Origin: Butyrivibrio sp.
GTDB taxonomy: Bacteria; Bacillota; Clostridia; Lachnospirales; Lachnospiraceae
DNA: 64,000 bases
Reading direction: 5' to 3'
Assembly (NCBI GenBank): GCA_015056565.1
Contig: SVGB01000001.1
Coordinates: 248,001-312,000, forward strand
In this document: piece after piece, positions 11,191 through 37,236 of the stretch
Layout of the letters: every line of letters starts with the position of its first letter
How positions within the stretch are numbered: position 1 is the first letter of the stretch
Notes under the pieces: generated by a model
Databases searched by the model: none
The model's input: the letters and a program-made list of their open reading frames with translations, nothing else
What the model was told of the DNA's origin: nothing
Made by a program: the position numbers and the translations under genes

Positions 11191-11375
11191 CTGCCAGAGC
11201 AAACAATCCCCATCGCCAGGGGTTGACCCGCCTGCCAAGGCACCTCCTGCACCGCCAGGGATTGTCCCGCCTGCCAAGGCGCCTCCTACACCGCCAGGGA
11301 TTACCCCATCTGCCAGCGCAAACAATCCTCTATCACCAGGGATTGACCTGCTTGCCGGAGCCACCTTCGCCATCG
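11191..11375. repeat. Minisatellite of four to five ~40-bp units
   Basis: Units begin with CTGCCA at 11191, 11232, 11271 and 11310, with a degenerate fifth at 11351. Lengths are 41, 39, 39 and 41 bp. The first and fourth units share AAACAATCC, the second and third share a CCTCC-type core, giving an A-B-B-A pattern; each unit contains a (A/C)CGCCAGGG-like core. The array overlaps the last codons of the TPR gene and continues about 140 bp past its stop. Confidence 0.85.
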
Positions 11376-12139: not shown

Positions 12140-12141
12140 TA

Positions 12142-13107
12142 TCACAGCCTCCCTCTTCTTACAAATAACACGATCTCAAACATCACCATTAAGATCAGAG
12201 GATATGCAAAGAAGAAATAGATATCTCTTTCTATCTCCGCACCATTTCCTGATTCAATGATGGTCTTACTGCTCTCTTTTATTATTTCAACAGCGCCGTC
12301 AAGAGCGGAACTTCCGCTGTTCATATTAAGGTACTGGAGCCCCAGGTCTGTTGCGATCTTGTTGAGGTTCTCTTCGTCGATCTTAGAGATGGCATCCTTG
12401 TGGGTACTATAGTCGTAGATGTACCCATAGCCAAAGTCCTCTTTCATCTTGCCGCCAGTTTCACTTCCATAACCAAGAACAGCTCCAGCGTCAATATACT
12501 GGGCAAGCTCCGAGTAGTCCACAAGCTCTTTTCCATTGGTGATCTCACCGTCGCTTATAAAGAACACGATTGTCTTGCGGTTCTCTTTCCTTGCTGAAGA
12601 ACGAAGCAGGGCGTCAATGTCCTGATAGGGAATTGACAGATCGCTCCCCTTGGCGTAGTCGCTGTCAGGAGACTTAAAGGTGTCAAACAGGTCCTTGATG
12701 TACTGCATATCCTGGGTAAAAGGCGACAATACATGGGCAGTATCGTCAAAGGTCACAAGGCCAAAGTTACTGCCTGCAAGCTCATTGATGATGGAGTTTG
12801 CGTCCTTGATGACGCCTTTCATCCTCTCCCTTTTGCCATTGTAATCCTGGGCCCACATGCTGATGGTATTGTCCACGATAAATAAAACGTCCAGGTTCTT
12901 GGTGGCAAACTCGTACTGAGTCTCAGGGATCACAGGACGAAGGCCAATGACCAGCATCAGGACATAGATAACAGACATCCTGAGGAGTGTCCAGAACTTA
13001 TCCCTGGTATTAAATTTATTTCTGATAATAAGCACTGCCGTGATGCCAAAAAGCGATGCGATCACAAGGAGCAGCACTCCAACTGGAAGTATAGGTTTAA
13101 TGCTCAT
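12142..13107 (-). CDS. Membrane VWA-domain protein (BatB-like)
   Basis: 321 residues. Two N-terminal membrane helices (about 8-28 and 42-62), a VWA domain, and a C-terminal membrane helix (about 295-315). The metal-ion-dependent adhesion site begins at Asp79 as D-N-T-I-S, so Thr replaces the first Ser of DxSxS, and later FFISDGEITNG provides the second Asp loop. The ATG at 13107 overlaps the upstream stop as ATGA, which fixes the start against a longer frame beginning at a GTG. It sits second of two VWA genes in a MoxR operon, probably binding the partner VWA and TPR proteins at the membrane. Substrate unknown. Confidence 0.9.
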   Translation of the reverse strand: MSIKPILPVGVLLLVIASLFGITAVLIIRNKFNTRDKFWTLLRMSVIYVLMLVIGLRPVIPETQYEFATKNLDVLFIVDNTISMWAQDYNGKRERMKGVIKDANSIINELAGSNFGLVTFDDTAHVLSPFTQDMQYIKDLFDTFKSPDSDYAKGSDLSIPYQDIDALLRSSARKENRKTIVFFISDGEITNGKELVDYSELAQYIDAGAVLGYGSETGGKMKEDFGYGYIYDYSTHKDAISKIDEENLNKIATDLGLQYLNMNSGSSALDGAVEIIKESSKTIIESGNGAEIERDIYFFFAYPLILMVMFEIVLFVRRGRL

Positions 13108-14219
13108 TTTTGTAATACCAATCCTGCAAGGCACCCTGCAATGAGGCACCCCAGCATTATAATGAATGGAATCCGAGGAAGGTCTATGGTCTGCCTTGTC
13201 ATAACGACTTTAACAAGCATGGCCTCCTGCTTCTGGATATCCTTGACGATCTCTTCTACAGTCTGGGACCTGGTCCTTATGTAGAACTTGCCCCCGGTAG
13301 TTTCAACTGCCTCCTTAAATCCTGTCAGACAGGATGAATAGTCGTACTCCTCTGGCAGATAGAACTTCTCCTCCGACGGGAAAATACCAAAGACTGTGAC
13401 CTTGTTCTTTTTACAGTAATTTGCTGCCTCTTTGAGATTGAGCACCTCCCTGACAAATGAGTTATTCTCGTTGTCGGTGCTCATGATGATGACCCTGGTC
13501 CTCTCAGAACTACCAAGGTAGGGAAAAGAGTAAAGGGCTGTACCAAGACCTTCTCCGATAAGAGAAGATCCTCTGTACCAGTTTTCGTACAGGGTTCCTG
13601 CCTCAAAGTAATCAAGCTTATCCTGAAGCTCTGCATATCTTGCATACTTGTCATCCGGCATATAATCGAAGCTGTCGTAAACTGTATAGTACTCCTCAAA
13701 GTACTCTTTCTGCATGGCAAAATAGCCATCCAGCTCATCCAGACGATCTAAGATGTAGTCGTAGTCATCAGTCAGGGGAACGTAGGTTACAGACGAGGTA
13801 TTAAAGATATTTATTCCAAACCTGTCCCCGTCAAGACCAGCAACGACGCCCTTGTAGTAGTCAACGATCTCCGCGTTAAGATCATACAGAGAGTAGGACA
13901 CGTCAAGGCACAGGATGATATCTCTTTTCTTGACACCGCTTACCACATCGTCGGTCTTATATGGCCTTGCAGCCAGGAAAAGAGCTGCCACTATCCCAAG
14001 GACCATTCCGGCAAGGAAAATGCCAGAAAGTATCCTATACCTGATATTTAAGGATCTGTACAGTTTGGAATTTCTGATCCTTGCAGTGTTAGCTGCCTTA
14101 AGGCCACCCTCAAAGCTCTCAGTCCTCTTCTTATGAACCAGATAGATTATCAAAAGAGCTGCCAGCAGAGCGCATACCCCCACTATGACAACCTCTTTAT
14201 ACATAAGCGTCAGCTCCAT
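13104..14219 (-). CDS. Membrane VWA-domain protein (BatA-like)
   Basis: 371 residues. Membrane helices near 8-28 and 62-84 flank a short loop, the VWA domain occupies about 98-330, and a final helix ends the chain. The MIDAS is canonical: CLDVSYS with Asp106, Ser108 and Ser110. A Tyr/Asp-rich insertion (about 150-190, KEYFEEYYTVYDSFDY) is larger than in typical BatA. GGGAG lies ahead of the ATG, and the start overlaps the preceding gene by 10 bp. Together with the MoxR ATPase it should form a metal-dependent chaperone-like complex at the membrane. Confidence 0.91.
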   Translation of the reverse strand: MELTLMYKEVVIVGVCALLAALLIIYLVHKKRTESFEGGLKAANTARIRNSKLYRSLNIRYRILSGIFLAGMVLGIVAALFLAARPYKTDDVVSGVKKRDIILCLDVSYSLYDLNAEIVDYYKGVVAGLDGDRFGINIFNTSSVTYVPLTDDYDYILDRLDELDGYFAMQKEYFEEYYTVYDSFDYMPDDKYARYAELQDKLDYFEAGTLYENWYRGSSLIGEGLGTALYSFPYLGSSERTRVIIMSTDNENNSFVREVLNLKEAANYCKKNKVTVFGIFPSEEKFYLPEEYDYSSCLTGFKEAVETTGGKFYIRTRSQTVEEIVKDIQKQEAMLVKVVMTRQTIDLPRIPFIIMLGCLIAGCLAGLVLQK

Positions 14220-14707
14220 GAATTTATCACTCCCATTGCTACTCTGCAGGAAGCAGCAAAATCTTTATTTTCAGCCTTCTCATCCTCAGCGAACTCAGGT
14301 ACGTAGTACTCTTCCATAAGTTCGTCAAGTTTCCTGATGCCCAGTGCCTTAACTTCCTTGACTGTAAAGGATTCTACATTGATGCCTGTGACCTCGTGGA
14401 CAAAACTTCTGATGATACCGCTAAGTTTCTGGTATCCGTCCCTCTTTGTCAGCTTCCCTGACAGATATCCGTTAAGCAGCGCCGATACCCTTCCGATGTA
14501 ATCCTTTTTCATCTTGGCAAGATTTTCCGGTGTAAGATGGACCTTGTGATATCTTGGCCGTTTGGCGGTAGCTTTTTCCCTGAGGTCCAAAAGCTTTTTT
14601 ACCACATAGATAAGTATCACCGCTGCGATGATGCCAAGTATGATGGTGGCCAATGTGACGATCCAGCTATATTCAAATGGCGCCTGAAGTTTAACCGTAG
14701 TAACCAT
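14210..14707 (-). CDS. Membrane protein of MoxR operon (DUF4381-like position)
   Basis: 165 residues. One N-terminal membrane helix (about 15-38, WIVTLATIILGIIAAVILIY) followed by a basic, helical cytoplasmic domain with LLNGYLSGKLTKRDGYQKL and FVHEVTGINVESFTVKEV. In MoxR operons this position is usually taken by a DUF4381-type protein; the resemblance here is by position, topology and size rather than by a motif I can name. The ATG at 14707 has GAAAGG seven bases upstream; a TTG at 14722 is a poorer alternative. It overlaps the DUF58 gene by 17 bp and the VWA gene by 10 bp. Confidence 0.82.
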   Translation of the reverse strand: MVTTVKLQAPFEYSWIVTLATIILGIIAAVILIYVVKKLLDLREKATAKRPRYHKVHLTPENLAKMKKDYIGRVSALLNGYLSGKLTKRDGYQKLSGIIRSFVHEVTGINVESFTVKEVKALGIRKLDELMEEYYVPEFAEDEKAENKDFAASCRVAMGVINSWS

Positions 14708-15575
14708 TTCTATACCTTTCAAGGAGCGTTATAACGCTCTCAATAATATCTTCCTGCTTGGAGATTGTTGTCATGGCTGCCCGAAGCTGCTTACAGGTGT
14801 GGGACACGCCATCTATTATCTCCTGCCTCTGCCTTACCTCTTCCTCATGAAGGGCCTTTGAATGGGATAAAAAGAATCTCTCGTAGACCTTAAGGTCGCT
14901 GTCAAAAACCTGATCCCCAGTAAGAAAGGCATCTTCAATGTTTATGATCATGAGGTCATTATTGTCAGTAATGCTCCTTACAACGCCTGGATCCAGCTGA
15001 CTTAATCCTTCTATATCTGTAAGGATGAAAATGATCATCCTCTTATGGACTGTGTTGAGCACCTCTTTTATCGTATCCGTAAGGGAAACAGTGCTGTCTG
15101 AGTCCACACTCTTTTCATAGTCATAAAGAAGACTCTCAAGGTGGTCAGTTCCTGACTTGAAGATACTGGTGGTGGCGTGGGTGCCTCCTGCATAGGACAG
15201 GGCAAAGTCAGCTCCATTCCTGCCAACGATATAAGCAAGGGTTCCAAAAGTCATCATCATAAGCTCTGCCTTGCTCTCGCCTGCTGTGGTATCTCCCAGC
15301 ATCTTAAGGCCTCTGTCGCAGATGAACATCACGTTATGGCGGCGGGATGTCTCATATCTGCGCACAAGAATAGAACCCATGCGGGATGAGCTCTTCCAGT
15401 CGATATCGTGGACATCATCCCCATAGGTGTATTCCTTAAGGTCATCAAAATCCATGCTGCGGCCCCTGTGGGCAGAGTGGAAATCGCCGTCAAGGATGTT
15501 TGATGTCTTTCTCTTTGTATAAAGAGCTACTGCTCTTCTTATTTTTGACAGATACTCGTAATCGATCTTCATCAT
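14691..15575 (-). CDS. DUF58-domain protein of MoxR operon
   Basis: 294 residues, cytosolic. The DUF58 hallmark is visible: GRSMDFDDLKEYTYGDDV followed by DIDWKSSSRMG and LVRRYETSRRHN. The rest is a VWA-like fold without a complete MIDAS (FICDRGLKM). DUF58 proteins accompany MoxR ATPases and VWA proteins; their direct activity is unknown. Its ATG overlaps the moxR stop as ATGA, so the genes are translationally coupled. Confidence 0.93.
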   Translation of the reverse strand: MMKIDYEYLSKIRRAVALYTKRKTSNILDGDFHSAHRGRSMDFDDLKEYTYGDDVHDIDWKSSSRMGSILVRRYETSRRHNVMFICDRGLKMLGDTTAGESKAELMMMTFGTLAYIVGRNGADFALSYAGGTHATTSIFKSGTDHLESLLYDYEKSVDSDSTVSLTDTIKEVLNTVHKRMIIFILTDIEGLSQLDPGVVRSITDNNDLMIINIEDAFLTGDQVFDSDLKVYERFFLSHSKALHEEEVRQRQEIIDGVSHTCKQLRAAMTTISKQEDIIESVITLLERYRNGYYG

Positions 15576-16576
15576 GGTGCCTTCACTGAATTAACAAGGG
15601 CGTCTATAACAGCCTCTACAGGCACGTTGTCAGCTACTGCAAGATAGTTAAGGCCTATGCGGTGCCTAAGTACCTGGTGGCTGACCTGCTTGACGTCCTC
15701 GGGAGTTACATAGGTCCTGCCCTGGATAAGAGCTGCTGCCTTGGCCATCTTAAGGAAAGCTATGGAAGCTCTTGGACTTGCTCCGATCCTTATGTACTTG
15801 GCAAGTTCAAGGCCCTGGATCTGACTGGCTCTTCTTGAAGCCACAACTATGCTGGAGATGTACCACTTGATGGCGTCATCTACGTAGACTCTCTCAGCGA
15901 TATCCTGAAGCCTGTCAACGTCCTTGATAGAAAGAACTGGAGGATCAACCTTTGAAATCGCTCCGGTCTCGATCCTGTTTAAGATCTCAACTTCATCCCC
16001 TGCTGTAGGGTATGTGATGACTTCCTTAATAAGAAAACGGTCAGTCTGTGCCTCTGAAAGAGGGTATGTTCCCTCCTGCTCTATAGGGTTCTGGGTTGCA
16101 ATTACTATAAAGATATCCTCAGGCATGTGATAGCTCTTTCCACCGATGGTGACCTGCTTCTCCTGCATGGCTTCAAGCATTGCTGACTGAGTCTTGGCAC
16201 TTGACCTGTTGACCTCATCAAGAAGAACGAAGTTTGCAAAAACAGGTCCGAGGATGTTCTCAAACTTGCCTGTGGACTGGTTGTAGATCTGGGTTCCGAT
16301 AATGTCTCCAGGAAGCAGGTCCGGTGTACACTGGATCCTTGCAAACTTACCATCCACAGCATCGGATATTGCCTTGGCTGCTGTGGTCTTGGCAAGGCCA
16401 GGTACTGACTCAATAAGGATGTGTCCGTCAGCCACAATTGCTCCCACCAGTGAGAACTTAAGCTGTCCCTGTCCTACTACCTTTTTCTCAAAATAGTCTG
16501 AAAGCTTTTTTAAAACTTCCTGGGAGTACTGAAATTCCTCCTCAGTGATGTTGTTGTTTGTATTTGTAACTTCCAT
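15572..16576 (-). CDS. MoxR-family AAA+ ATPase
   Basis: 334 residues, the usual MoxR length. The Walker A loop reads SVPGLAKT (57-64), Walker B FVLLDEVNRS (Asp120, Glu121), sensor 1 IATQNPIEQEGTYPL, and the lid domain with the conserved GASPRASIAFLKMAKA. MoxR ATPases remodel or activate client proteins together with VWA partners. As first gene of the six-gene operon (MoxR, DUF58, membrane protein, VWA, VWA, TPR) it probably energises the complex; related loci are linked to envelope and oxidative stress tolerance. TGGAGAGATAAA precedes the ATG and an extended -10 promoter lies upstream at 16614-16622. Confidence 0.96.
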   Translation of the reverse strand: MEVTNTNNNITEEEFQYSQEVLKKLSDYFEKKVVGQGQLKFSLVGAIVADGHILIESVPGLAKTTAAKAISDAVDGKFARIQCTPDLLPGDIIGTQIYNQSTGKFENILGPVFANFVLLDEVNRSSAKTQSAMLEAMQEKQVTIGGKSYHMPEDIFIVIATQNPIEQEGTYPLSEAQTDRFLIKEVITYPTAGDEVEILNRIETGAISKVDPPVLSIKDVDRLQDIAERVYVDDAIKWYISSIVVASRRASQIQGLELAKYIRIGASPRASIAFLKMAKAAALIQGRTYVTPEDVKQVSHQVLRHRIGLNYLAVADNVPVEAVIDALVNSVKAP

Positions 16577-26090: not shown

Positions 26091-27299
26091 TTATAGTCTC
26101 AGGGCGTCGATTGGTTTCATGAGGGCTGCTTTTCTGGCAGGGTAGATTCCAAAAAACAGACCTATCAGGATTGAGAAAAGAGCTGCACCTGCAACCGAGG
26201 AGGGCGTGATGATAACGTCGAATCCAATTGCCGAGCAGATAATATACGCAAGGATGATCCCAAGGATTATCCCAACAATTCCTCCAAGAAGAGTAAGGAT
26301 AGCTGACTCTGCCAAAAACTGGGTCAGAATAGCACCGGTACTGGCTCCTATGGATTTTCTGATACCGATCTCTCTTGTTCTCTCAGTAACAGATACCAGC
26401 ATGATGTTCATAACACCGATACCACCAACCACCAGAGAGATTATTGATACAAGTAAAAGAAAGTCCTGAGCGTAGCCAAGGATCTTATCAAGCTGATCTG
26501 AAAAATCCGCCATACTGTAGCCTGAAATAGCTGTGGTACCACGAAGCCCGTGTTTATTGGTCAGGATCTCTTTTGCCTTGTTAACTGACTCATTAAGTGT
26601 TGACTGATCATCAAAGAGGATGACCTGGGAAAACTCATCGGTCTTCATATCAAAATCAGAGCCCATTGCCGTGTAGGGCATTTCTATCTGAGCGTAGTAA
26701 TCCTGCCCCTCCATAATGAACTGATACATATCATTCATGTGATCACGAAGTCCGATTATGGTGTAGGTAGCGGTCTTACCGTTCACGGTGATGTCAACTT
26801 CTCTTCCAACCGCATCCTCTGTGCCAAAAAGCTTTTTTGCGTCATCAAGGAGCATTACACATACTCTTGCTCCTGTTTCTACCTGCTGCGACGTAAAATA
26901 GCTGCCCTTGGCAATTCCGTTGCTGAAAGCATGCTCAAAAGCCTGGGTTCCACCATTTACATAGCACTCGAAGGTATCTTTTTTACCCTTTACCTTGCCT
27001 AAGCCCTCTACATCTGGAGACATTCCCTTGATGTCAGGAAGATATTCCATAACAAGGTCAATGTCATCCTGGGTAAAGCGTTCAGAAGTCTTGCTTGTAT
27101 CCATGGTAAAAATACCGTAATTACCTGCAAGGTCATTCAGGGAATTGGTAACGTATGCACTCATTCCATTACCAAGAGCCACAACCGCGATAACCGCCGC
27201 TATTCCAATGACTATTCCAAGCATGGTCATGGCAGTTCTGTAGCCATTACCAATTATCTGTTTAATTGCGCTTTTTAAATACTCGCCAAATTTTCCCAT
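26091..27299 (-). CDS. MacB/FtsX-type ABC transporter permease
   Basis: 402 residues with the MacB/FtsX architecture: one N-terminal membrane helix (about 18-42, with MLGIVIGIAAVIAVVALGNG), an extracytoplasmic MacB core domain (about 45-270), and three C-terminal helices (LLLVSIISLVVGGIGVMNIM, then TEREIGIRKSIGAS-type coupling segment, then two more). Such permeases use ATP energy for mechanotransmission, exporting peptides, antibiotics or lipids. The ATG starts one base after the adaptor gene stop. It is the last gene of ATPase-adaptor-permease. No terminator is obvious downstream. Confidence 0.95.
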   Translation of the reverse strand: MGKFGEYLKSAIKQIIGNGYRTAMTMLGIVIGIAAVIAVVALGNGMSAYVTNSLNDLAGNYGIFTMDTSKTSERFTQDDIDLVMEYLPDIKGMSPDVEGLGKVKGKKDTFECYVNGGTQAFEHAFSNGIAKGSYFTSQQVETGARVCVMLLDDAKKLFGTEDAVGREVDITVNGKTATYTIIGLRDHMNDMYQFIMEGQDYYAQIEMPYTAMGSDFDMKTDEFSQVILFDDQSTLNESVNKAKEILTNKHGLRGTTAISGYSMADFSDQLDKILGYAQDFLLLVSIISLVVGGIGVMNIMLVSVTERTREIGIRKSIGASTGAILTQFLAESAILTLLGGIVGIILGIILAYIICSAIGFDVIITPSSVAGAALFSILIGLFFGIYPARKAALMKPIDALRL

Positions 27300-27300
27300 T

Positions 27301-28956
27301 TTACTGTGCCACTACTACTGCCATTCCCTCTGTAAGGAGAGATACATCTGATGAAATAACCTGATCTCCAACTGACAGTCCCTCAGTGATCTGAGCATCT
27401 GTACTTGTTGAGATGCCAATTGTGACGTCTTTTCTTGTTACAACGCCATTCTCAAGCACATAAACGAAGTCTCCGGTAGAATCTGTCTGGATCAGCTCAT
27501 AAGGAAGAACTATTGTGTCATCAGCCTTCTGAGCGTGGATCTTGTTGTTTGCCTCAACTCCGAGAATAATATCTGAATCAGGATTGGTAACCTTGATGAT
27601 GGTTGCAACTACAGCAACGCCATTGGCATTCTTGGTTGCAGTTCCGGAAACCTTGGTAACCTCTCCCTGATACTGTTTGCCGTTTATTGTGATATCAACC
27701 TTCTCACCAACTGAAACCTTTGGAAGGTCACTCTTTGATACTGAGATTGAAACCTGCACGTCATCAAGGTTTGCTATAGTAAAGAGCTGTGAGCCATTTG
27801 CCACTGTAGCTCCCTCAACAACTGTAGCAGGCATAGCTGTGATAACGCCGTTAAAATCAGCCTTGATGCCTTCCTTTGCAGCCTCTATCTTACCAAGAGT
27901 ATCCTCCTGGGTAAGCTCTGTAGCCTCCATTGAAGCCTTGGTTGCTGAAGCTGAACCAGGGTTAACCTGAGAAGCCTTGGCACTTGAAAGATGAGACTGT
28001 TCTTCCTTAAGGGCAGTTATCTGATTGTTCCATGCCTGGATCTGTGGATCGTTCTGGATAGCATAGGAAACATCAGAAATTGAATCCTGGACAGCCAGAG
28101 CCATCTGCTTGTTGTATTCAGTTGGTTCTGTATACTCCCCATTTTCCTTGGTATCTTCTGTATTCCTGTATATATAGTTAGTATTACCGCTTTCAAAATA
28201 ACCTTCCTGGCTGTCAGATATACCATTCTGGTTGATATCCCTTGCCACCTTCTGAAGGTCAGTAAGTGTCTGGTTCATACGGCTTGTCTTTTCAGTGATC
28301 TGTCTGTTTAGGGAATCGATCTCTGCTGTTATAGCATCAATCCTGTCGTTGATCTGCTGTGCAGTCATACCCTCTGCATACTTTCTGTCAGCTGCTCCCA
28401 CAGGGCTGTAAAGTGCACTGTAGTTACCCTTGGCCTGCTGGATTGCAAGCTCAGCGCTCTTTTGCTGAAGTTCAAGAGCATCTGCATCGTAAGTACAAAG
28501 AACATCTCCGGCCTTGACCTTATCACCAACCTTGACATTGACGGTTTCAAGGGGAGCTGACACCTCTGTAAAGTAATTTTTGTTCTCAGCACTCTCAACT
28601 GTACCGGAGATTGAAAGGATATTTTCAATACTTCCAAGTGCAACTTCCTGAGTTTCAACAGTCACAATTGAATTCTTGGCTGCATTGATCCTGCCAATGA
28701 TAAATCCGATAACTCCAAGAGCTAACACTCCAAAAAGAATGTATCTCTTCTTGAATTTTCTTTTCTTCTTTTTTGTTGAATCTGAAAGATCAATGCTGTC
28801 GTCCTCATCGTAGATTTCTACAGACGCTCCAGTAGTTTCCTTGATCACGTTCTGATCTGTAGCAATATTTACTGTGGCAGTATCTTTTGACTCAGCCTCT
28901 TTAGTATCTACAGCTGTATCTACTACCTTCTCCTCTAAGTTCTTATTCTCTTCCAT
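27301..28956 (-). CDS. HlyD/MacA-type efflux adaptor protein
   Basis: 551 residues, long for the family. An acidic cytosolic N-terminus (about 1-65) ends in the basic KKKKRKFKKR, then a membrane helix (about 74-92). The biotinyl-lipoyl halves are visible (APLETVNVKVGDKVKAGDVL and IKADFNGVITAMPATVVEGA), flanking a long coiled-coil hairpin (about 150-345). Inside the hairpin the segment DINQNGISDSQEG looks like a calcium-binding loop. Beta-barrel and membrane-proximal domains follow. The start at 28956 is chosen because GGAGGATATT precedes it. It links the ATPase and permease in this Gram-positive MacAB-like system. Confidence 0.92.
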   Translation of the reverse strand: MEENKNLEEKVVDTAVDTKEAESKDTATVNIATDQNVIKETTGASVEIYDEDDSIDLSDSTKKKKRKFKKRYILFGVLALGVIGFIIGRINAAKNSIVTVETQEVALGSIENILSISGTVESAENKNYFTEVSAPLETVNVKVGDKVKAGDVLCTYDADALELQQKSAELAIQQAKGNYSALYSPVGAADRKYAEGMTAQQINDRIDAITAEIDSLNRQITEKTSRMNQTLTDLQKVARDINQNGISDSQEGYFESGNTNYIYRNTEDTKENGEYTEPTEYNKQMALAVQDSISDVSYAIQNDPQIQAWNNQITALKEEQSHLSSAKASQVNPGSASATKASMEATELTQEDTLGKIEAAKEGIKADFNGVITAMPATVVEGATVANGSQLFTIANLDDVQVSISVSKSDLPKVSVGEKVDITINGKQYQGEVTKVSGTATKNANGVAVVATIIKVTNPDSDIILGVEANNKIHAQKADDTIVLPYELIQTDSTGDFVYVLENGVVTRKDVTIGISTSTDAQITEGLSVGDQVISSDVSLLTEGMAVVVAQ

Positions 28957-28995
28957 AATATCCTCCATACTTCAGGCCCATGGCCCTTACATCCC

Positions 28996-29700
28996 TTAAA
29001 TTTCTTCCTTATAATCAGGGTTCATAATGTCACTGGTTATCTTTCCATCTGATATGGTAATGATCCTCTTGGCCTGTGCTGCAATGCCAGGATCATGGGT
29101 AATTATGATAACAGTTCTGCCCTCAAAGTAGAGCCTTTTGATAATCCTTATGATCTCCTTTGTAGAGGCAGTATCAAGGTTACCTGTAGGCTCATCTGCC
29201 AGAAGAATTGGCGGAGCCTGGGCTATAGCCCTTGCTATGGCAACTCTCTGCTGCTGACCTCCGGACATCTCGTTGGGCTTGTGGGTCTTACGCTTTTCAA
29301 GACCTACGCTGTTAAGAGCGGCATTTGCAAGCCTCTCCCTCTCCTTTTTTCCAACCCCTCTATATATAAGAGGAAGCTCAACGTTCTCAAGAGCTGTCAG
29401 TGACGGTATTAAGTTAAAGCCCTGGAAAATAAAGCCAATTTCTCTGTTTCTGACTTCAGACTGCTCATCATCTGTCATATGTGATACGTCCTGTCCATGC
29501 AGATAGTATTTGCCGCTGGTTGGCGTATCAAGACAGCCAAGCATATTCATAAGAGTAGACTTACCGGAACCAGACTGTCCGATAATTGCTACAAATTCTC
29601 CTTCTCCGATGGTCAGGGAAACATGATTAAGCGCTCTGACCTCGTTCTCCCCAGGATTGTAGACTTTGCTAACATCCTTTATTTCTACCAATTTTTTCAT
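28996..29700 (-). CDS. MacB/LolD-type ABC transporter ATP-binding protein
   Basis: 234 residues. Walker A GQSGSGKST, Q-loop FIFQGFNLIPSLTALENVELP (typical of the MacB/LolD class), signature MSGGQQQRVAIARA, Walker B PPILLADEPTGNLD and H-loop IIITHDPGIA are all intact. The ATG at 29700 has GAGGA five bases upstream; longer in-frame starts lack this. First gene of an ATPase-adaptor-permease operon for export or envelope stress resistance. It begins 101 bp past the PurA-like gene, whose operon may or may not continue into it. Confidence 0.96.
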   Translation of the reverse strand: MKKLVEIKDVSKVYNPGENEVRALNHVSLTIGEGEFVAIIGQSGSGKSTLMNMLGCLDTPTSGKYYLHGQDVSHMTDDEQSEVRNREIGFIFQGFNLIPSLTALENVELPLIYRGVGKKERERLANAALNSVGLEKRKTHKPNEMSGGQQQRVAIARAIAQAPPILLADEPTGNLDTASTKEIIRIIKRLYFEGRTVIIITHDPGIAAQAKRIITISDGKITSDIMNPDYKEEI

Positions 29701-29801
29701 AACATTCCTCATATGGCCTGTTGCCATAAAACATTGCACACAACTTCTCTATATTCTATGCCATTTTGTGTACAAAATCAAAGAAACTTTTTGTGAACTC
29801 A

Positions 29802-31013
29802 TTAAGGCAATTCCCAAAACCCATCGATTACCATGGAAACTTCCCTGATATTGCCAAGCTCTGCTACAGTCAGATCACTTTCTCTGTCCTGAAAAACAAT
29901 CCTGCCTTTAGTTTCTGAAAGGTGGGTGACAGCGCAGGTGACTTTGGGTCTGTAGCTAAGCGTTTTAAGATCCATGATCATCGGATCGATAAAGTCATAT
30001 ACCGATGTGTGAGGTGCATATCTTATGGTTCCCTGCCAGGGATTTTCCACATTTGTAGTATCAGTTTCCAGATCACCGAGAGCTTTTTTCTCACATTCAA
30101 ATGGAAGCTCCCCTGCTCCATGCCTTGTGACATAGCTTCTTGTCACATAAATGACCTCATCTATTTTTAATCCATACCTGTCAAGAAAGGCCGCAGGGTT
30201 AGTAAGACCTGTCCTTGACCCGGTCACATGGGGCGCATATCTGGTGTTTTCTGCATCCAACAGCAGCCCCTGACCGCTTTCAAAGATAACATTTTCATAT
30301 CTGTTAAGAAAAGAAACTGGATCAGTCTCGATAACATCCACATAATCTGCGTTTCTCTTCATCTCATAGGCTGCATTTTTAAGGACAACGTTATTTAAGA
30401 TATCCTTTAAATACTGAGAATCACCGGTTCCGCCAAAAATCTCACCAATCCTTGGTCTGTAATAATAATCTCTTATATGGATAAGCTCTTTATACAGCTC
30501 ATCATCACTTAAAGCCTTGACCTTTGCTACCGACAGGCCAAAACCGTTCCTTACGCGAAGGAAAGCCTCATAGATCCCCATGCCGCAGCTTCCGTGGCGA
30601 TTCGTTCCTCTTATTGTTTCCAGCGCCATGTTAAAAAGCACGTCACAGACTATGGTCACGTTTGTATCAGGAAGGGAGTATATCTTTGGGACAATACCCG
30701 AAACTTCTATAAAAGAGTCAACCTCTTCCCTTAACTTAAAAAGATCCGGGAAAAAGGTATCTATCCACAACGTGTCTGCACCACAAAAACTGCCAGATCC
30801 GACCTCATGAAAGATGAATCTCTTTTCATGAGCGCCGGCATGTGGCAGTTTATCATCATCTGAAGCTATGACTACGGTGTGGCCTGACTGAGCGCCGCCG
30901 TTGTGGCGGATCACGAGGCTCTTTCCAAGTCTGTCTGCGAGGATATCAGTCACTCTCCCCTTACCCTCATCACCGAAGTTTTTACCAATAACCACGAAAA
31001 ATTTAGTGGACAT
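29802..31013 (-). CDS. Divergent adenylosuccinate-synthetase (PurA) homologue
   Basis: 403 residues against about 430 in PurA. The GTP/IMP P-loop GDEGKG (14-19), with the catalytic Asp, and GHT (44-46), with the catalytic His, are kept, as are ESGQGLLLDAE and TRHGAGELPFE. Other PurA landmarks are changed: TTGRGIGP is replaced by TNRHGSCGMG, the Arg-rich aspartate-binding loop TGRRRRTG by NPWQGTIRYAP, and the guanine-specifying TKLD by THLSETKG. So the chemistry (GTP-driven phosphorylation of an oxo group and amine addition) may persist on another substrate. It starts in TAATG overlap with the VWA gene inside the NHLP exporter operon, not with purine genes. Calling it purA would be premature. 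Confidence 0.8.
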   Translation of the reverse strand: MSTKFFVVIGKNFGDEGKGRVTDILADRLGKSLVIRHNGGAQSGHTVVIASDDDKLPHAGAHEKRFIFHEVGSGSFCGADTLWIDTFFPDLFKLREEVDSFIEVSGIVPKIYSLPDTNVTIVCDVLFNMALETIRGTNRHGSCGMGIYEAFLRVRNGFGLSVAKVKALSDDELYKELIHIRDYYYRPRIGEIFGGTGDSQYLKDILNNVVLKNAAYEMKRNADYVDVIETDPVSFLNRYENVIFESGQGLLLDAENTRYAPHVTGSRTGLTNPAAFLDRYGLKIDEVIYVTRSYVTRHGAGELPFECEKKALGDLETDTTNVENPWQGTIRYAPHTSVYDFIDPMIMDLKTLSYRPKVTCAVTHLSETKGRIVFQDRESDLTVAELGNIREVSMVIDGFWELP

Positions 31014-31906
31014 TAAAAGAAAAATCCTTTTTTACGTGTCTTGAGAACAAGACCCTCTACTGCGTTTCTGACAATAGGCTGTGCGTAGCTGCTCCACTGC
31101 GCAATAGCATCTTCAAGGCTCATGCCACCCGCCATCTGCATTACAGTAATGATAACCTCAGGAATTGCAGTTACATTCTGTTTTCCAAGAGTAATGATCC
31201 TTCCCGGAATAGCACTGTTAAAGTGTAATGGCTTTGTAAAGTTGCCTGAAAGATCGATATGGAAGACCTCGTACTTCTCCCCTGCCATCTCTGCAAGCTT
31301 TTTTGATGTAAATCTCTCCGGGTCATCCCCAAAGATATTTGCTATATCTGCACCTCTTACCTCAGGATGGCAGTCCGCATCTCCAATGGTGAAAATAAAT
31401 CCCTTTTTGCCTCTCTTTTCATAGGCATCAATCTTGGTATGCTTTGCAGCAAAGTACCACAAAAGTTCAAAGTCCTCCGGTGAATCGCCGCCTCTTCCCT
31501 CAAGCCACAGATCAAGGAGCTGCTCAGCTATACGGATATCTGATTCAAACTGGGTAACCTGGAGAGGCGCCCTGTCAGATACATCGCCGATCGCTGCAAA
31601 AAGAAGCTGTGGATCATCCACTGGCTTGGTTGAATAGAGCTTCATCATAGTCTCATGAAGAGAGTTCTTGGCAATCTCCTCAGAAAGATATCCCATGGAT
31701 CCTGTAACATCAAGTCCGATGATGATAGGTGTTGAATTTGGGTGATCCTCAGAATCCATTGCTTCACGCATATTTACAAACTTAGGGTTGAACTTCTCCT
31801 CCATTCCCACTTTCTTAAATATCTGGGAAGCAGTTGATCTTTCAGAAATTCCTGCTGAGTCCCTAAGCTTAGACCAGTCCGCACTTGTATAACTTCCGTA
31901 TCCCAT
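31013..31906 (-). CDS. Soluble VWA-domain protein in NHLP exporter operon
   Basis: 297 residues, no signal or membrane segment. The VWA domain starts near residue 60 with PIIIGLDVTGSMG, giving MIDAS residues Asp66, Thr68 and Ser70. The second metal loop appears as GDVSDR and the third as GDADCHPE. A Gly/Asp-rich stretch GRGGDSPEDFELLWYF is conserved-looking. The C-terminal QMAGGMSLEDAIAQW is helical. VWA proteins act as metal-dependent scaffolds; a VWA next to a protein kinase recalls TerY-P-type signalling modules. It ends overlapping the PurA-like start (TAATG). Confidence 0.88.
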   Translation of the reverse strand: MGYGSYTSADWSKLRDSAGISERSTASQIFKKVGMEEKFNPKFVNMREAMDSEDHPNSTPIIIGLDVTGSMGYLSEEIAKNSLHETMMKLYSTKPVDDPQLLFAAIGDVSDRAPLQVTQFESDIRIAEQLLDLWLEGRGGDSPEDFELLWYFAAKHTKIDAYEKRGKKGFIFTIGDADCHPEVRGADIANIFGDDPERFTSKKLAEMAGEKYEVFHIDLSGNFTKPLHFNSAIPGRIITLGKQNVTAIPEVIITVMQMAGGMSLEDAIAQWSSYAQPIVRNAVEGLVLKTRKKGFFF

Positions 31907-31929
31907 TTTGTAATTACTCCTCCATAAAC

Positions 31930-32874
31930 TTAATAATTCATTTTAGTAAAACGTCTTCCCCCAAAGGCGTCTTCTATCACTTTATCCCAATTCTCAAAAT
32001 CCTTGTAGGCATCATGAGTTGGTTTTTCAGAAAGGAACCTCTCAAAGCTGTCCTTTTTAAGATCTGCGTTGTATCCAAGGATCATCCTGGCAGTTTTCCT
32101 AAGATCCACCAGGTCCTTATTTGCTTCTGGCAAAAGAGATTTCTTTTTATCAGAAATATCCCACCAGGCTCCAAATAGCATTGCCTCGTGAGTCCTTGGA
32201 TTGATGCAGATATTGTCCGCAGTTATGTCTCCATGGACAATGCCGCTGTATTCAAGAACGCAGCAGATATTTTCAAGACGGGATATTATCCACGCCACAT
32301 GCTCTTTTGAAAGAGCCCCAAATAGCTCAAGAGGATAGAATTCCTCAGGTTTCTTGAATATCAGAAGAAGGCTTCCGTCGTCAAGGATTATGGTTCCCTG
32401 GTACTGCGGGAAGCACTTTTCAAGGTGCCTTAGGTCCGCCTGAGGGTAGTTGAGCTTTGAAAGCCCGCCTATAGCCTTGGATGTCAGGTTTCCGTGAAGT
32501 GCCCCTGCATCCATTATATCTGTGTGGTTATTGTAGCTCTTCGGGAAGTGGTAAATAACATTATACCTGGTAAAGTAAGATGTCACCTGTCCCTCTTTTG
32601 CCCTGTAGATGTAACTTATGACCACCTCTTCGCCATCTTTGGATTTCAGGCTCAGATGCTCTGCCCTGTCCCACATCCTGTCTGTCTTATCAGGGTCCGG
32701 ATCTGCATCAGCACAGGCTTTTAAGTACTCCAGCATGTGGATCCTGAAAGCCTTGTACCCAGCAAGTTCTGCGTCGGAGAAATTCTCTTTTGCTCCGCAG
32801 TAGGGACAAACCAGGTCCCCGGATGAATGCACCACCATCTCGGCGCTGCAGTTTGGACATTTATAACTTATCAT
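31930..32874 (-). CDS. Zinc-ribbon protein with degenerate protein-kinase domain
   Basis: 314 residues. A zinc ribbon opens the chain (CPNC at 6-9, CPYC at 23-26). From about 85 a kinase-like fold follows. The catalytic loop is HGDITADN (214-221), which keeps the Asp and Asn, but the DFG motif reads LFG (233-235), so the metal-binding Asp is lost. No clear Gly-rich loop is visible in the N-lobe. The likely reading is a pseudokinase or an atypical kinase. Zinc-ribbon kinases beside VWA proteins are known from TerY-P-like modules. Four bases separate it from the exporter gene upstream. Confidence 0.82.
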   Translation of the reverse strand: MISYKCPNCSAEMVVHSSGDLVCPYCGAKENFSDAELAGYKAFRIHMLEYLKACADADPDPDKTDRMWDRAEHLSLKSKDGEEVVISYIYRAKEGQVTSYFTRYNVIYHFPKSYNNHTDIMDAGALHGNLTSKAIGGLSKLNYPQADLRHLEKCFPQYQGTIILDDGSLLLIFKKPEEFYPLELFGALSKEHVAWIISRLENICCVLEYSGIVHGDITADNICINPRTHEAMLFGAWWDISDKKKSLLPEANKDLVDLRKTARMILGYNADLKKDSFERFLSEKPTHDAYKDFENWDKVIEDAFGGRRFTKMNY

Positions 32875-32878
32875 GTTC

Positions 32879-35050
32879 TTACAGTTGCTGCCTTTCTACT
32901 AATTCGCTAAAATATCCCTTCTTGGCTATAAGGGCATCGTAAGTGCCTTCTTCAACTATCTTACCGCCGTCCATTACAAGGATTCTGTCGCAGTTTTTGA
33001 TAGTTGAGAGTCTGTGGGCAATAACGATCCTTGTGCACTTAAGGCCGTCAAGGGCTTCAGAGATCTGCCTCTGGGTTATATTATCAAGAGCACTGGTGGC
33101 TTCATCAAATATCAGGATCTTGGGCTTGCTTGCAACAGCCCTTGCAATGAGGATTCTCTGCTTCTGACCGCCGGAAATTCCGCCCTGACCTTCAGCAATA
33201 ATGGTGTGCATTCCCATTGGCATTGCCCTTATGTCGTCAGCGATACCTGCCAGCTCTGCAGCTTCCCAGGCCTCATCCGGAGTAAGCTTTTCAGAGGCGA
33301 TCGCAATGTTGTGGAATATGTCTCCGTAAAAGAGCTTTCCATCCTGGATAACTGAACCGATCTTGCGGCGAAGCGACTTAAGATCGATCCTCTCAAGGTC
33401 TTTTCCATCATAGAAAACTGCACCCTTTTCAGGCTTCTCAAAACCAAGAAGGAGCCTTACCAAAGTGGATTTGCCACATCCTGTCTTACCTACAATGGCG
33501 ACGTACTCGCCGGACTTTATTTTAACAGAAAAGTTCTCAAGAATATAGGGTGTCTGCTCGTTGTACCTGAAGTAGACGCCGTTCATTTCAATACCGCCAC
33601 TTATCCTGGTTGCGATATCCTTCCTCAAGGTCTTTTCAGGCTCTGCCTTAAGGATGGGTTCTGCCATATCAAGAACCGGCTTGATCTTGGCAACTGAAAG
33701 CGAAGCCATGGAAAGAGCTGAGAATGCCGCAAACATGGTTGCATAAGCGATGTTAAAAGCAAAGTACTCAGAGGTGGAAACGCCTGAGCTGATCGCCATT
33801 CCGTAGAGCACTACTGTTCCTATAAGAGAGATGGCAGTGTTGATAACTCCGCTTATCTTAAGGAAGAACGGAGGATTGTACTGGAGGGCTGCCCCTTCAG
33901 CATACTGATTTGCCCACTTTGCAAAGATTCTTTTCTCCGCTCCTGCAAGCTTGATCTTCTGAATGCCGCCTATTATGGCAAAGGTAAGGCCACTCTCTTT
34001 GGCAAGGAGCTCCATGCGTCTTTTGGAGATCCCAACCTGCATCAGTACCGATATGGTTGAAAACAGCACCGTAAGAAGCATGATGATAAGAGACGGAACT
34101 ACCAGCTTTGGCGCAAACCCAAAGATCTGGATTATATACACCAGCGAAAACAGGGACGAAAATCCCAGTGAGAAAAAGTCCTCTATAATGATCTCGCAGA
34201 TCTCATTGACGCTGCTGGACCTGCTGGAGAGTTCACCGGCTGAAAACTTCCGAAAGAACGGAGCTGGCAGAGTAAGTATTCTCTGCATTACAGCCTGCTC
34301 AACAGGTATTGTAACCTTCCACTTGATCCTTGCAATGACTGCATTATTAACAGCATCAAAGGCACTGGTAAAGAAGATCGTCACTATAATTGTGACAACA
34401 AGGGCCCAGAAAAGCCCGTAGTCCTTGGTGTCAAGGACTGTGCCAGTCAGGATCTGTGACGCATATGGAAGTATCATTGTCACCAGCACAAGTGCCAGGG
34501 AAAGAAACGCAACTGACAGGTAGTCCGTAACAGCAAGGCGCCTTTTCATAAAGCCAATAAGATCCGGAATCCCCAGCGGCTTAAGAGGAAGGGGCTCATA
34601 GAACGCCACTGCATCTTCCTTAAAGAGCTGAGCCTGTTTTTTTCCAACCCTGGTCTTTTTCCCGGTATCAGGGTCATAGTAGTAATACTTGCCAAACCCC
34701 TGCGGGAAAAGAGCTATAGGCATATTGTCCTCTTCAAAGAAGCAGATGATAGGTCCAAAGCAGTCAGTAAACCACTTGCCCTCAAGCTTGATATTGGCCT
34801 TCATCATACCAACGCTGTTTGCCGCATACTCAATCTGATCCAGAGGCTCAGAAATGCTGTGTGGCACCTCTACCCTTGGGTAATTGTAGTAGTAAAAGAC
34901 TTCGTCTATGGCATTTTTGATGTTGGTCTTTAAGTCTTTTCTCTTAACAGGCTCTCCCAGGACCCTATGAGCAATATTGTCATAGGAATCCCTGAAAAGC
35001 TCGTCGTCCATTCTTTTTCTTTGTCTTATTTGTTCGTCAAACCAGCCCAA
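32879..35050 (-). CDS. NHLP-family bacteriocin export ABC transporter (no peptidase)
   Basis: 723 residues. The first 165 residues are the non-peptidase N-terminal domain of this exporter class (PRVEVPHSISEPLDQ, PIALFPQGFGKYYYYDPDTG). Membrane helices follow (about 180-450), then an ATPase with Walker A GKTGCGKST, signature ISGGQKQRI, Walker B ILIFDEATSA and H-loop IVIAHRLST. This matches the second subunit of NHLP leader-peptide exporters, which works with the C39-peptidase subunit encoded 23 bp upstream. The ABC activity is certain; the peptide cargo is not encoded nearby. Confidence 0.92.
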   Translation of the reverse strand: MGWFDEQIRQRKRMDDELFRDSYDNIAHRVLGEPVKRKDLKTNIKNAIDEVFYYYNYPRVEVPHSISEPLDQIEYAANSVGMMKANIKLEGKWFTDCFGPIICFFEEDNMPIALFPQGFGKYYYYDPDTGKKTRVGKKQAQLFKEDAVAFYEPLPLKPLGIPDLIGFMKRRLAVTDYLSVAFLSLALVLVTMILPYASQILTGTVLDTKDYGLFWALVVTIIVTIFFTSAFDAVNNAVIARIKWKVTIPVEQAVMQRILTLPAPFFRKFSAGELSSRSSSVNEICEIIIEDFFSLGFSSLFSLVYIIQIFGFAPKLVVPSLIIMLLTVLFSTISVLMQVGISKRRMELLAKESGLTFAIIGGIQKIKLAGAEKRIFAKWANQYAEGAALQYNPPFFLKISGVINTAISLIGTVVLYGMAISSGVSTSEYFAFNIAYATMFAAFSALSMASLSVAKIKPVLDMAEPILKAEPEKTLRKDIATRISGGIEMNGVYFRYNEQTPYILENFSVKIKSGEYVAIVGKTGCGKSTLVRLLLGFEKPEKGAVFYDGKDLERIDLKSLRRKIGSVIQDGKLFYGDIFHNIAIASEKLTPDEAWEAAELAGIADDIRAMPMGMHTIIAEGQGGISGGQKQRILIARAVASKPKILIFDEATSALDNITQRQISEALDGLKCTRIVIAHRLSTIKNCDRILVMDGGKIVEEGTYDALIAKKGYFSELVERQQL

Positions 35051-35073
35051 TTGTAAACTCCTAAGTATAGTAG

Positions 35074-37236
35074 TCAGTCATTTGTTACCAGTGCACTGTA
35101 ATATCCGCCCCGCTCAAGGAGCTGTTCGTGGGTTCCTCTCTCCACGATCTGTCCCTTGTCAAGAACAATGATCTCATCGCTGTCTCTTATGGTTGAGAGC
35201 CTGTGAGCGATGATGATAAGAGTGATTCCTCTGTCCTTGATGGCCTTTACAACTTCGTACTCTGTCTTGGCATCAAGAGCACTGGTAGCCTCATCCAGAA
35301 TGATGATAGAAGGATCCATCGCAAGGACTCTTGCTATCTCAAGTCGCTGTCTTTGGCCGCCAGATAGGTCTTTTCCACCTTCAGATAATCTGTACTGATA
35401 GCCTGAAGGCTTGGAGATGATGTCGTCGTGGATCTGGGCATCTCTTGCCGCCAGTATCATTTCAAAGTCCTCGATGGACTCATCCCACATCTTGATATTG
35501 TTCTCTATTGTATCCTCAAAGAGGATGATATCCTGGTCAACAACTGCAACTGAACCAGTGAAGGTACTTCTGTCAATCTCGGAAATGCTCTTTCCATCAA
35601 AGAGGATCTCTCCGCTCCAGGGCTTATAAAGTCCGGAGATGAGCTTACTCATTGTAGATTTTCCACATCCACTTCCGCCTACTATGGCGACTCTTTTGCC
35701 AGTTGTCAGATTCATGGAGAAGTCCTTGATAAATGGCTCATCAAGGATCGAATAGCCGAAGGTGACATTCTTTACTTCCACATTTCCGGAGAGTTTCTTG
35801 AACTCGTGGCTGTCGTCATCCTCTCTGTCGGCGTACTCATCAGTCGGATACTCCATTACATCCTCAACTCGCTCCATCTCGGTGCGCATCTCAAGAAGCG
35901 TCTGCCCTGCGTTAGTCAGTGTTGCTGCAGGTTCCATGAAGGATGTGAGGATTCCCTGGAAGGCTGTGATCATACCGACGGTGAAGTGTCCATTCATTGC
36001 AAGGAACACGCCGGCGAAGGTGATACCGTAGTTGGCAAGCTTGGTGATCATGTTTGGCAAAGCGCCCAGGTAGGTGTTTTCCCTCATGAACTGGACTTCT
36101 TTTTCATCAACCCTTGCTTTTAGCTCAACCCAGTTTTCATAAAAGCCGTTCTCAGCGCCGCTAGCCTTGATAGTCTCTATCATGCTGATTCCTGAAAGAG
36201 TGGTGGTCTGAAGCTTACCGCTGTCTATCAAAAGGCCTCGGGAAATATTTATCCTGTGGTCGGAAATTATCTTGGACAAAATAAGGTTTATGAGAACTGT
36301 GGTTACACCAAGGACCGTAAGCGGAATTGAATACCTGATAAGAACCACCAGGTAAAACAGCATCATTGCTGTATTCAGGCACAGAGGTGCAAAGGTGTTA
36401 ACGATGGCGCTGGCGATCTCCTCATTGGTGGTCTGTCTCATCATAAGATCACCAGACATTCTCTGGGAAAAGAACTCCATAGGAAGCCTTAGTACTTTCC
36501 ACATAAATGAAGTACTACCGTTGATAGCCAGTTTTCCGTCAATTCGAAGTGAATGGACTGCAGATATCCAGGACACAATGATCTGGACAAGTGCAAGGAT
36601 ACCTAAAAGGATCAGGAAAGGCTGTGCGCTTTCGCTGGCCTTTTTCGTAAGAAGATTATCCATAAAGTACTCAGACATAAATGGATTAACCACACTAAAT
36701 ACATATGAAAAGATTGTCATGGCTACAGTGAAGATAACTGCAGTCCTGGCATCCTTAAGTCTCTTTCCGGCAAACTCAAATACACTCTTTCTCTTGCCAC
36801 CCTGCTGAAATTCTTCAGTGGTGTCAAACATCAGAGCAATCCCGGTAAAGCCCTTGGCAAAGTCCTCTATTGGCATTGCCACGTTGCCCCTTGAAGGGTC
36901 ATTGACATAGGCCTTATTGCCCTTAAATCCGCACAGTACAATAAAGTGATTATAGTCCCAGTGGATTATGCAGGGAAACATGCCCTTTTCCCTCAGGGCA
37001 TCCAGTTCAAGCCTGTATCCATTTGCTGTAAGGCCATACTTTCTTGCTGCCTTTAAGATATTCCTGGCATTGGAGCCATCTCTTGAAACGCCGCAATCAA
37101 GCCTCATCTGCTCAAGGGCAACCCACCTTCCATAATAAGCAAGGATCATGGAAAGGCATGCAGCCCCGCACTCCAAGGCCTCCATCTGCATCACTACCGG
37201 CACTTTAGCAACACCATTAGAAACCACTTTATTCAT
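35074..37236 (-). CDS. NHLP-family ABC exporter with C39 leader peptidase
   Basis: 720 residues. The N-terminal C39 peptidase is intact: QMEALECGAACLSMI with catalytic Cys23, His97 in NHFIVLCGF and Asp113 in VNDPSRG. Six membrane helices occupy about 165-440. The ATPase has GGSGCGKST, signature LSGGQRQRL, IIILDEATSA and IIIAHRLST. Such transporters cut double-glycine leaders while exporting bacteriocin-like peptides; the NHLP class handles nitrile-hydratase- or Nif11-type leaders. First gene of the operon, with a promoter at 37274-37303. AGGGGA lies rather far (about 11 bases) from the ATG. Confidence 0.94.
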   Translation of the reverse strand: MNKVVSNGVAKVPVVMQMEALECGAACLSMILAYYGRWVALEQMRLDCGVSRDGSNARNILKAARKYGLTANGYRLELDALREKGMFPCIIHWDYNHFIVLCGFKGNKAYVNDPSRGNVAMPIEDFAKGFTGIALMFDTTEEFQQGGKRKSVFEFAGKRLKDARTAVIFTVAMTIFSYVFSVVNPFMSEYFMDNLLTKKASESAQPFLILLGILALVQIIVSWISAVHSLRIDGKLAINGSTSFMWKVLRLPMEFFSQRMSGDLMMRQTTNEEIASAIVNTFAPLCLNTAMMLFYLVVLIRYSIPLTVLGVTTVLINLILSKIISDHRINISRGLLIDSGKLQTTTLSGISMIETIKASGAENGFYENWVELKARVDEKEVQFMRENTYLGALPNMITKLANYGITFAGVFLAMNGHFTVGMITAFQGILTSFMEPAATLTNAGQTLLEMRTEMERVEDVMEYPTDEYADREDDDSHEFKKLSGNVEVKNVTFGYSILDEPFIKDFSMNLTTGKRVAIVGGSGCGKSTMSKLISGLYKPWSGEILFDGKSISEIDRSTFTGSVAVVDQDIILFEDTIENNIKMWDESIEDFEMILAARDAQIHDDIISKPSGYQYRLSEGGKDLSGGQRQRLEIARVLAMDPSIIILDEATSALDAKTEYEVVKAIKDRGITLIIIAHRLSTIRDSDEIIVLDKGQIVERGTHEQLLERGGYYSALVTND

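Follow-up and report, generated by a model that had tools for sequence, protein, structure and literature searches.

A kinase-like protein, a VWA protein and a PurA-like enzyme form a three-gene module common to large phages and some bacteria

The 64,000-nucleotide stretch of Butyrivibrio sp. contig SVGB01000001.1 considered here (positions 248,001 to 312,000; hereafter the window) carries on its minus strand three adjoining genes that constitute a module common to large phages and some bacteria. In order of reading they encode a kinase-like protein of 314 amino acids (31930-32874), in which an N-terminal zinc ribbon precedes a degenerate kinase-like domain; a VWA protein of 297 amino acids (31013-31906), with a DxTxS metal-site motif and a near-invariant Met-Gly start; and a PurA-like enzyme of 403 amino acids (29802-31013), hereafter PurAL, from the superfamily of adenylosuccinate synthetase (PurA). 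Two genes for NHLP-type exporters stand immediately upstream, and the first-pass annotation of this DNA read all five as a single peptide-export system. That unity is not borne out, since some relatives have orthologous exporters but no trio, and others the trio but no exporters. The gene identities that it proposed are borne out by family matches and, for the VWA fold, by profile comparison, and its judgement that VWA, kinase-like and PurA-type proteins make an unusual combination stands as well; a search of the open-licence literature found no published account of this combination, which does not imply its absence from print. The best overall explanation, an even bet in our judgement, is that the trio is a module captured from phages whose products would form one complex, with PurAL coupling a nucleotide to an amine other than aspartate.

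The three genes form a conserved linkage group. Among 145 related genomes, the window's own included, 16 encode the VWA protein, and PurAL follows VWA in all 16 stretches compared from the 15 other positive genomes. In 13 of these VWA has the kinase-like gene ahead of it; two of the remainder (L031 and L033) end at a contig edge, and L022 has no such gene in the 0.6 kb before its edge. Profile scans with the VWA protein recovered at least 435 relatives in genomes and 200 in viral contigs, and in the best 80 of each, from gut bacteria and viral contigs, PurAL was present in 155 of 160 loci (78 bacterial and 77 viral). Five loci show no PurAL: two (L111 and L234) end within the VWA gene and a third (L174) lies on a contig that has PurAL further away (L279), while no PurAL was found in the stretches of L136 and L173. 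PurAL lies downstream of VWA in 77/77 bacterial and 76/77 viral loci, at median gaps of −4 and +13 bp, respectively, and the identity matrices of the two proteins correlate at 0.51 (bacterial) and 0.58 (viral), against maxima of 0.17 and 0.105 over 500 permutations. The kinase-like gene occurs in 73/80 bacterial and 28/80 viral loci; in five of the seven bacterial loci that lack it, VWA lies no more than 610 bp from the contig start. Reciprocal scans, which partly cover the same contigs as the VWA scan (the VWA-first and PurAL-first viral scans are not independent), placed VWA beside 75 of the best 80 PurALs and, starting from the kinase-like protein, beside 16 of 17, with both VWA and PurAL beside 15 of 17. 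Many of these loci are metagenome-assembled or uncultivated viral contigs, and the labels Myxococcales (L129) and Deltaproteobacteria (L136) are not relied on.

Several variations on the trio accompany this linkage. Genome G039 holds VWA-PurAL pairs on two separate contigs (L022 and L033). In 14 bacterial loci (L130, L135, L140, L143, L144, L145, L149, L150, L154, L160, L164, L166, L167, and L168) two successive VWA genes separate the kinase-like gene from PurAL. Many phages have, where the kinase-like gene would be, a protein with a Met-rich C terminus (L194:4192-4923, L216:4387-4989, and L086:5207-5920); these proteins fall into two clusters (14 and 5 loci) that resemble each other on visual inspection, and the two members scanned matched no Pfam or PHROG family at an E value of 0.001. 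In 22 viral loci VWA is preceded by a further family of small proteins, and the one member scanned (L206:4588-4974) had no Pfam or PHROG match. In the related loci L093 to L096 the trio follows genes resembling dnaK, dnaJ and a MATE transporter, which is curious given the J domain of the viral kinase-like proteins described below; the context of these four loci (L093, L094, L095, and L096) is likely one shared inheritance.

All three proteins of the window match PHROG profiles (phrog_3043, phrog_2971 and phrog_1211), and a tblastn search of 50,697 phage records found VWA in 206 and PurAL in 225. Phages of Mycobacterium predominate among the records with trio proteins, followed by those of Rhizobium and Vibrio; 11 of the 225 PurAL records, from Listeria, Salmonella, Acinetobacter, and Staphylococcus phages, count as matches only. 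Mycobacteriophage NoodleTree has the order kinase, VWA, a 90-amino-acid gene, PurA-like. Vibrio phage pv27 and Rhizobium phage TM30 have VWA and the PurA-like gene as a pair preceded by a different gene (in TM30 the two are separated by a small gene), and the upstream family of this pair recurs in two further phages that have no VWA-PurAL pair within 5 kb of it. An adenylosuccinate synthase and a VWA gene are also listed, by name only, among the genes of Vi01-like phages (PMC10892097). Beyond phages, the trio occurs in other bacterial phyla on megaplasmids of Acetobacter and Allorhizobium; megaplasmids of Rhodococcus and Variovorax carry VWA and PurAL with a weak kinase-like match (37-41 bits), and VWA and PurAL were seen in Methylorubrum. 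On the Allorhizobium plasmid (L352:7479-13077) the trio is followed by AAA ATPase, DUF5682, and DUF4132 proteins. Among cultured bacteria, Butyrivibrio strain LB2008 carries the trio (L151). Within the class to which the window's genome belongs the trio is rare (8/391 genomes, 2/222 genera), and the VWA gene was called "hypothetical protein" in all five annotated records that we opened.

A PurAL tree of 101 rows, thinned at 55% identity and built with the megaplasmid rows left out (62 viral, 38 bacterial, and one canonical PurA), speaks to how bacteria came by these genes. The 38 bacterial PurALs, from the window and the genome-scan loci, form one clade (support 98), which takes in phage contig L187 as well. 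Its sister is contig L183, and when the tree is rooted on the window genome's own canonical PurA the clade falls inside viral diversity, a nesting consistent with capture from phages. L187 has the densely packed small genes of a phage and carries the zinc-ribbon form of the kinase-like protein. Gut Clostridia, then, probably acquired the trio from phages. The notion that the bacterial copies are prophage remnants was dropped, as no phage family is prominent among the 25 of 112 flanking families listed.

PurAL belongs to the PurA superfamily but differs from canonical PurA. It passes the PF00709 cut-off of 27 bits with 102.3 bits over residues 7 to 314 (E value 3.4e-29) and matches phrog_1211 at 1.3e-42. 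Against every NCBIfam PurA equivalog listed it falls far short, the best score being 83 bits where the cut-off is 402, and the genome encodes a separate canonical PurA besides. We compared the active sites of 58 PurALs with that canonical enzyme, reading Escherichia coli numbering from the alignment. D13, K16, H41, and Q224 are kept in 58/58 and T239 in 55/58, such that PurAL retains the GDxGKG site and the equivalents of His41, Gln224, and Thr239. Among the 149 of 155 PurALs that reach 340 amino acids or more, GD[EAC]GKG is present in 139; of the other ten, four lack the N terminus as called and six vary the motif with GD and the lysine kept. The aspartate loop presents a very different picture. 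TTGRxR occurs in 0/149 PurALs, and a TN..N..Q-type motif occupies that region in 134/149; in the hidden Markov model alignment the positions of T301 and R305 hold Gln and Arg in PurAL, and that of R303 varies. According to PMC8342488, R303 of PurA makes contact with aspartate, and PurZ enzymes retain the threonine tip of the loop. With its phosphoryl-transfer residues kept and its aspartate loop lost, PurAL seems equipped to activate an oxo group of the purine type, but for use with a different amine, and by this comparison its amino-acid pocket is different from that of adenylosuccinate synthetase.

The VWA protein drew no match from Pfam or NCBIfam at an E value of 0.1. PDB sequence searches with VWA profiles returned no VWA protein (best E values 0.25 and 0.2), and hhalign of the profile against single sequences was not significant. 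In an hhalign comparison with 23 VWA domains, chosen for their DxSxS motif, the profile reaches an E value of 3.5e-05 at a probability of 71.6%, where two control families give 0.49 and 0.29; this comparison supports a VWA fold, and phrog_2971 is matched at 1e-38. D66, T68, S70, and D176, comprising the DxTxS motif and a later Asp that we take together to be the metal site, are present in 99-100% of 171 VWA rows. Gly2 is as constant, in 170 of the 171, followed by a free residue 3 and a residue 4 that is mostly Gly (149). A 77-row alignment had been trimmed to start at Met-Gly, so Gly2 was counted on the uncut set of 171 rows with open reading frames at contig ends excluded; taking longest open reading frames, the count is 150/173. 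Glycine occupies position 2 in 46/978 unlabelled neighbouring open reading frames, 7/155 PurALs, and 6/100 kinase-like proteins.

The kinase-like protein takes different forms in bacteria and viruses. In the window its zinc ribbon scores below the Pfam cut-offs (best 6.1e-06); across the loci, a zinc ribbon is found in 69/73 bacterial members and the HPD motif of a J domain in 24/26 viral ones. The DnaJ profile gave 27.6 bits (L171) and 17.9 bits in the two members tried, with a cut-off of 27.8. Its relation to kinases is based on the match of the window protein to phrog_3043 (annotated "kinase") at 4.2e-05 and on a mycobacteriophage member of the phrog_3043 family that matches a serine-threonine kinase family at 9.5e-09. 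The catalytic motifs are mostly lost, H.D....N and DFG each persisting in 4/99 members. A PDB search with the kinase-like profile found RNA polymerase zinc ribbons (0.0012) and weak matches to the kinases STK33 (0.039) and VRK3 (0.29).

Readings of these genes as canonical PurA, as PurZ, or as an NHLP system each miss a feature that we tested, namely the family cut-offs, the TTGRxR loop, or linkage to the exporters. In the scenario that we favour, the kinase-like, VWA, and PurAL proteins most likely act as one complex. PurAL would transfer phosphate from a nucleoside triphosphate to the oxo group of a purine-type nucleotide, in the manner of adenylosuccinate synthetase, as its kept residues suggest, and its lost residues point to something other than free aspartate as the amine that is coupled to the activated carbon. 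The VWA protein, through its metal site and Gly2, and the pseudokinase, through its J domain or zinc ribbon, may present or select the acceptor amine.

Several observations weigh against this scenario. Both the complex and the ligase chemistry are read from sequence comparison, and the kinase-like gene was not found in 52/80 viral loci. The purine pocket of PurAL has changed too, with N38 replaced by Gln in 56/58 and T129 by Cys in 57/58, and R143 has no in-register equivalent in the 58 PurALs, an Arg four residues earlier being invariant; given this pocket, the nucleotide may not be inosine monophosphate. The R305 of the aspartate loop is seemingly kept, which leaves room for another amino acid or a differently bound aspartate. 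The VWA Gly2 may be structural. The direction of transfer, finally, is drawn from a quick tree with a single, very long outgroup branch.

A bolder version of the favoured scenario, which we put forward as a long shot, holds that PurAL attaches a purine nucleotide activated at C6 to the N-terminal Gly that Met removal leaves free on its VWA partner, yielding an N6-substituted adenylate N terminus; alternatively, the acceptor might be the N terminus of another protein presented by VWA. An acceptor role for the VWA glycine would account for three features: a Gly2 conserved to the same degree as the metal-site Asp, the joint travel of VWA and PurAL, and the loss of the aspartate loop from an enzyme whose phosphoryl-transfer site was spared. 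If true, it would be a new protein modification by purine-ligase chemistry. Any protein or peptide amine used by PurAL would likewise make a new kind of protein modification, and another small amine would make a new nucleotide. The module spans lytic phages of Actinobacteria, Alphaproteobacteria, and Gammaproteobacteria, megaplasmids, and gut Clostridia. It pairs a textbook-pathway enzyme that has a rebuilt amino-acid site with a protein that has a fixed N-terminal Gly, and in gut bacteria it represents an operon related to phages that has taken up residence amid ordinary chromosomal genes.

Among the alternatives, the one that survives best has PurAL producing a modified nucleotide in free form, destined for phage DNA or for signalling, on the model of PurZ and 2-aminoadenine, with the VWA and kinase-like proteins in accessory or regulatory roles. 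PurA chemistry, a spread in large phages, an altered purine pocket, and the placement of phrog_1211 under nucleotide metabolism all speak for it. PurZ of Z-genome phages is also a phage-borne PurA relative, and PurAL matches the solved PurZ 7odx weakly (6.8e-04), but it scores far under the cut-off of the PurZ model NF038379 (28.6 against 300 bits), and PurZ, unlike PurAL, keeps the threonine tip of the aspartate loop; the Z-genome pathway was dropped on the missed cut-off. The free-nucleotide idea also leaves the tight VWA pairing and the fixed Gly2 unexplained, and the bacterial copies sit mostly in ordinary chromosomal surroundings. We regard it as unlikely.

Unlikely, too, by our estimate is a chaperone or assembly system, in which a J-domain or zinc-ribbon pseudokinase and the VWA protein would be co-chaperones and PurAL a non-ligating, nucleotide-driven switch. 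The viral HPD motifs and the near-miss of L171 against DnaJ speak for it, and a part in jumbo-phage virion assembly has been proposed for MoxR-VWA pairs and for J-domain proteins (PMC7824862). PurAL, however, keeps its phosphoryl-transfer residues throughout, and the neighbour clusters inspected contain no recurrent AAA ATPase.

TerY-P modules also set a VWA protein beside a kinase-like protein. The trio shares that pairing but adds a PurA-type enzyme, and its VWA protein matches no Pfam or NCBIfam family; we considered a TerY-P module and provisionally dropped it, the look for a phosphatase partner having covered the 25 of 112 flanking families listed.

An anti-phage defence or counter-defence system that bacteria captured from phages would suit the patchy presence of the trio (8/391 genomes of the class and 16/145 relatives) and its currency among phages. 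Against PADLOC-DB (2023 library), however, the trio proteins gave no convincing match (best E value 0.023). Of the 133 neighbour proteins of bacterial trios, the 119 scanned are varied: among the families listed, any one Pfam family accounts for at most four of them and any one PADLOC family for at most two, and nothing here hints at a defence island. The PADLOC family seen most often, mad3, matches two proteins, one of which is the NHLP exporter of L090. Such a function seems very unlikely.

It remains to consider the exporters. Exporter 1 (NHLP1; 35074-37236, minus strand) bears a C39 peptidase domain (PF03412, 1.9e-35) and clears the TIGR03796 cut-off (887.8 against 853.3 bits), and exporter 2 (NHLP2; 32879-35050, minus strand), which lacks the peptidase, falls 7.5 bits short of that of TIGR03797 (701.9 against 709.4 bits); the two ABC genes belong to or border on these bacteriocin-exporter families. 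The open reading frame coordinates agree with the single-strand arrangement of five genes first described, with gaps of 23, 4, and 23 bp and a TAATG in which the VWA stop and the PurAL start share one base. Downstream on the same strand lies a Mac operon, comprising a MacB-type ABC ATPase (28996-29739; PF00005, 2.3e-36), a MacA/HlyD-type adaptor (27301-28968; TIGR01730, 126.9 bits, above cut-off), and a MacB-type permease (26091-27299; PF12704 and PF02687), together with a DUF5717 protein.

The five-gene order was seen in the window and three close species (L019-L021), in which the five proteins are 70-98% identical to the window's. The exporter pair adjoins the trio in three of the 12 stretches with upstream room, and these are all three close species. 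Full-length exporters occur in one of 80 trio loci of the genome scan (L090), whose VWA identity is that of G028, already among the three. Conversely, nine stretches hold the orthologous exporter pair without the trio, with exporter 1 75-83% identical to that of the window, and six of them retain one or more of the genes found upstream in the window (transporter, amylase, ATPase, and LacI). Four of the nine are followed by the Mac operon, immediately in L071 and L074 and after one gene of 250-254 amino acids in L072 and L073; an opposite-strand open reading frame of 107 amino acids lies between the exporter pair and the Mac operon in L071. Eleven stretches with more distant exporter pairs showed no trio, and in G076 (L029) a divergent trio precedes the same Mac operon with the exporters absent. 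Exporters without trio and trio without exporters in relatives indicate that the window brings together three separate blocks, namely the exporters, the trio, and the Mac operon. In four species exporter 2 and the kinase-like gene stay 3-4 bp apart, and the genes are probably co-transcribed in that lineage. The NHLP exporters are, on these comparisons, a neighbour and not part of the conserved trio, with a transcript probably shared in one lineage only. The separation of exporters from the other genes that the annotation had named as telling against itself is thus half realised, in that the trio loses the exporters in relatives and its own three genes stay linked, phages included.

The annotation had also remarked on a missing precursor peptide. 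The operon gaps indeed leave no space for a precursor gene, and a search of the window's genome (87% complete) with NHLP and Nif11 leader profiles found none, a weak negative because the NHLP-leader profile was silent in 14/14 control genomes. An NHLP peptide-export operon in which the trio modifies or regulates an unseen peptide, for which the kept 3-4 bp gap speaks, but against which stand the scarcity of adjoining exporters, the nine orthologous and eleven more distant exporter stretches without a trio, and the empty if weakly controlled leader search, is in our estimate very unlikely.

The same genome holds a second NHLP exporter pair (L083:4741-9131, G000:C2), 58% and 51% identical to the first, with a small upstream gene of weak likeness to the NHLP HlyD partner. 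Elsewhere in the window, positions 11333-16576 contain a cluster of genes resembling, as named by eye, MoxR, DUF58, VWA, and TPR genes, one VWA of which matches PF00092 at 2.2e-07.

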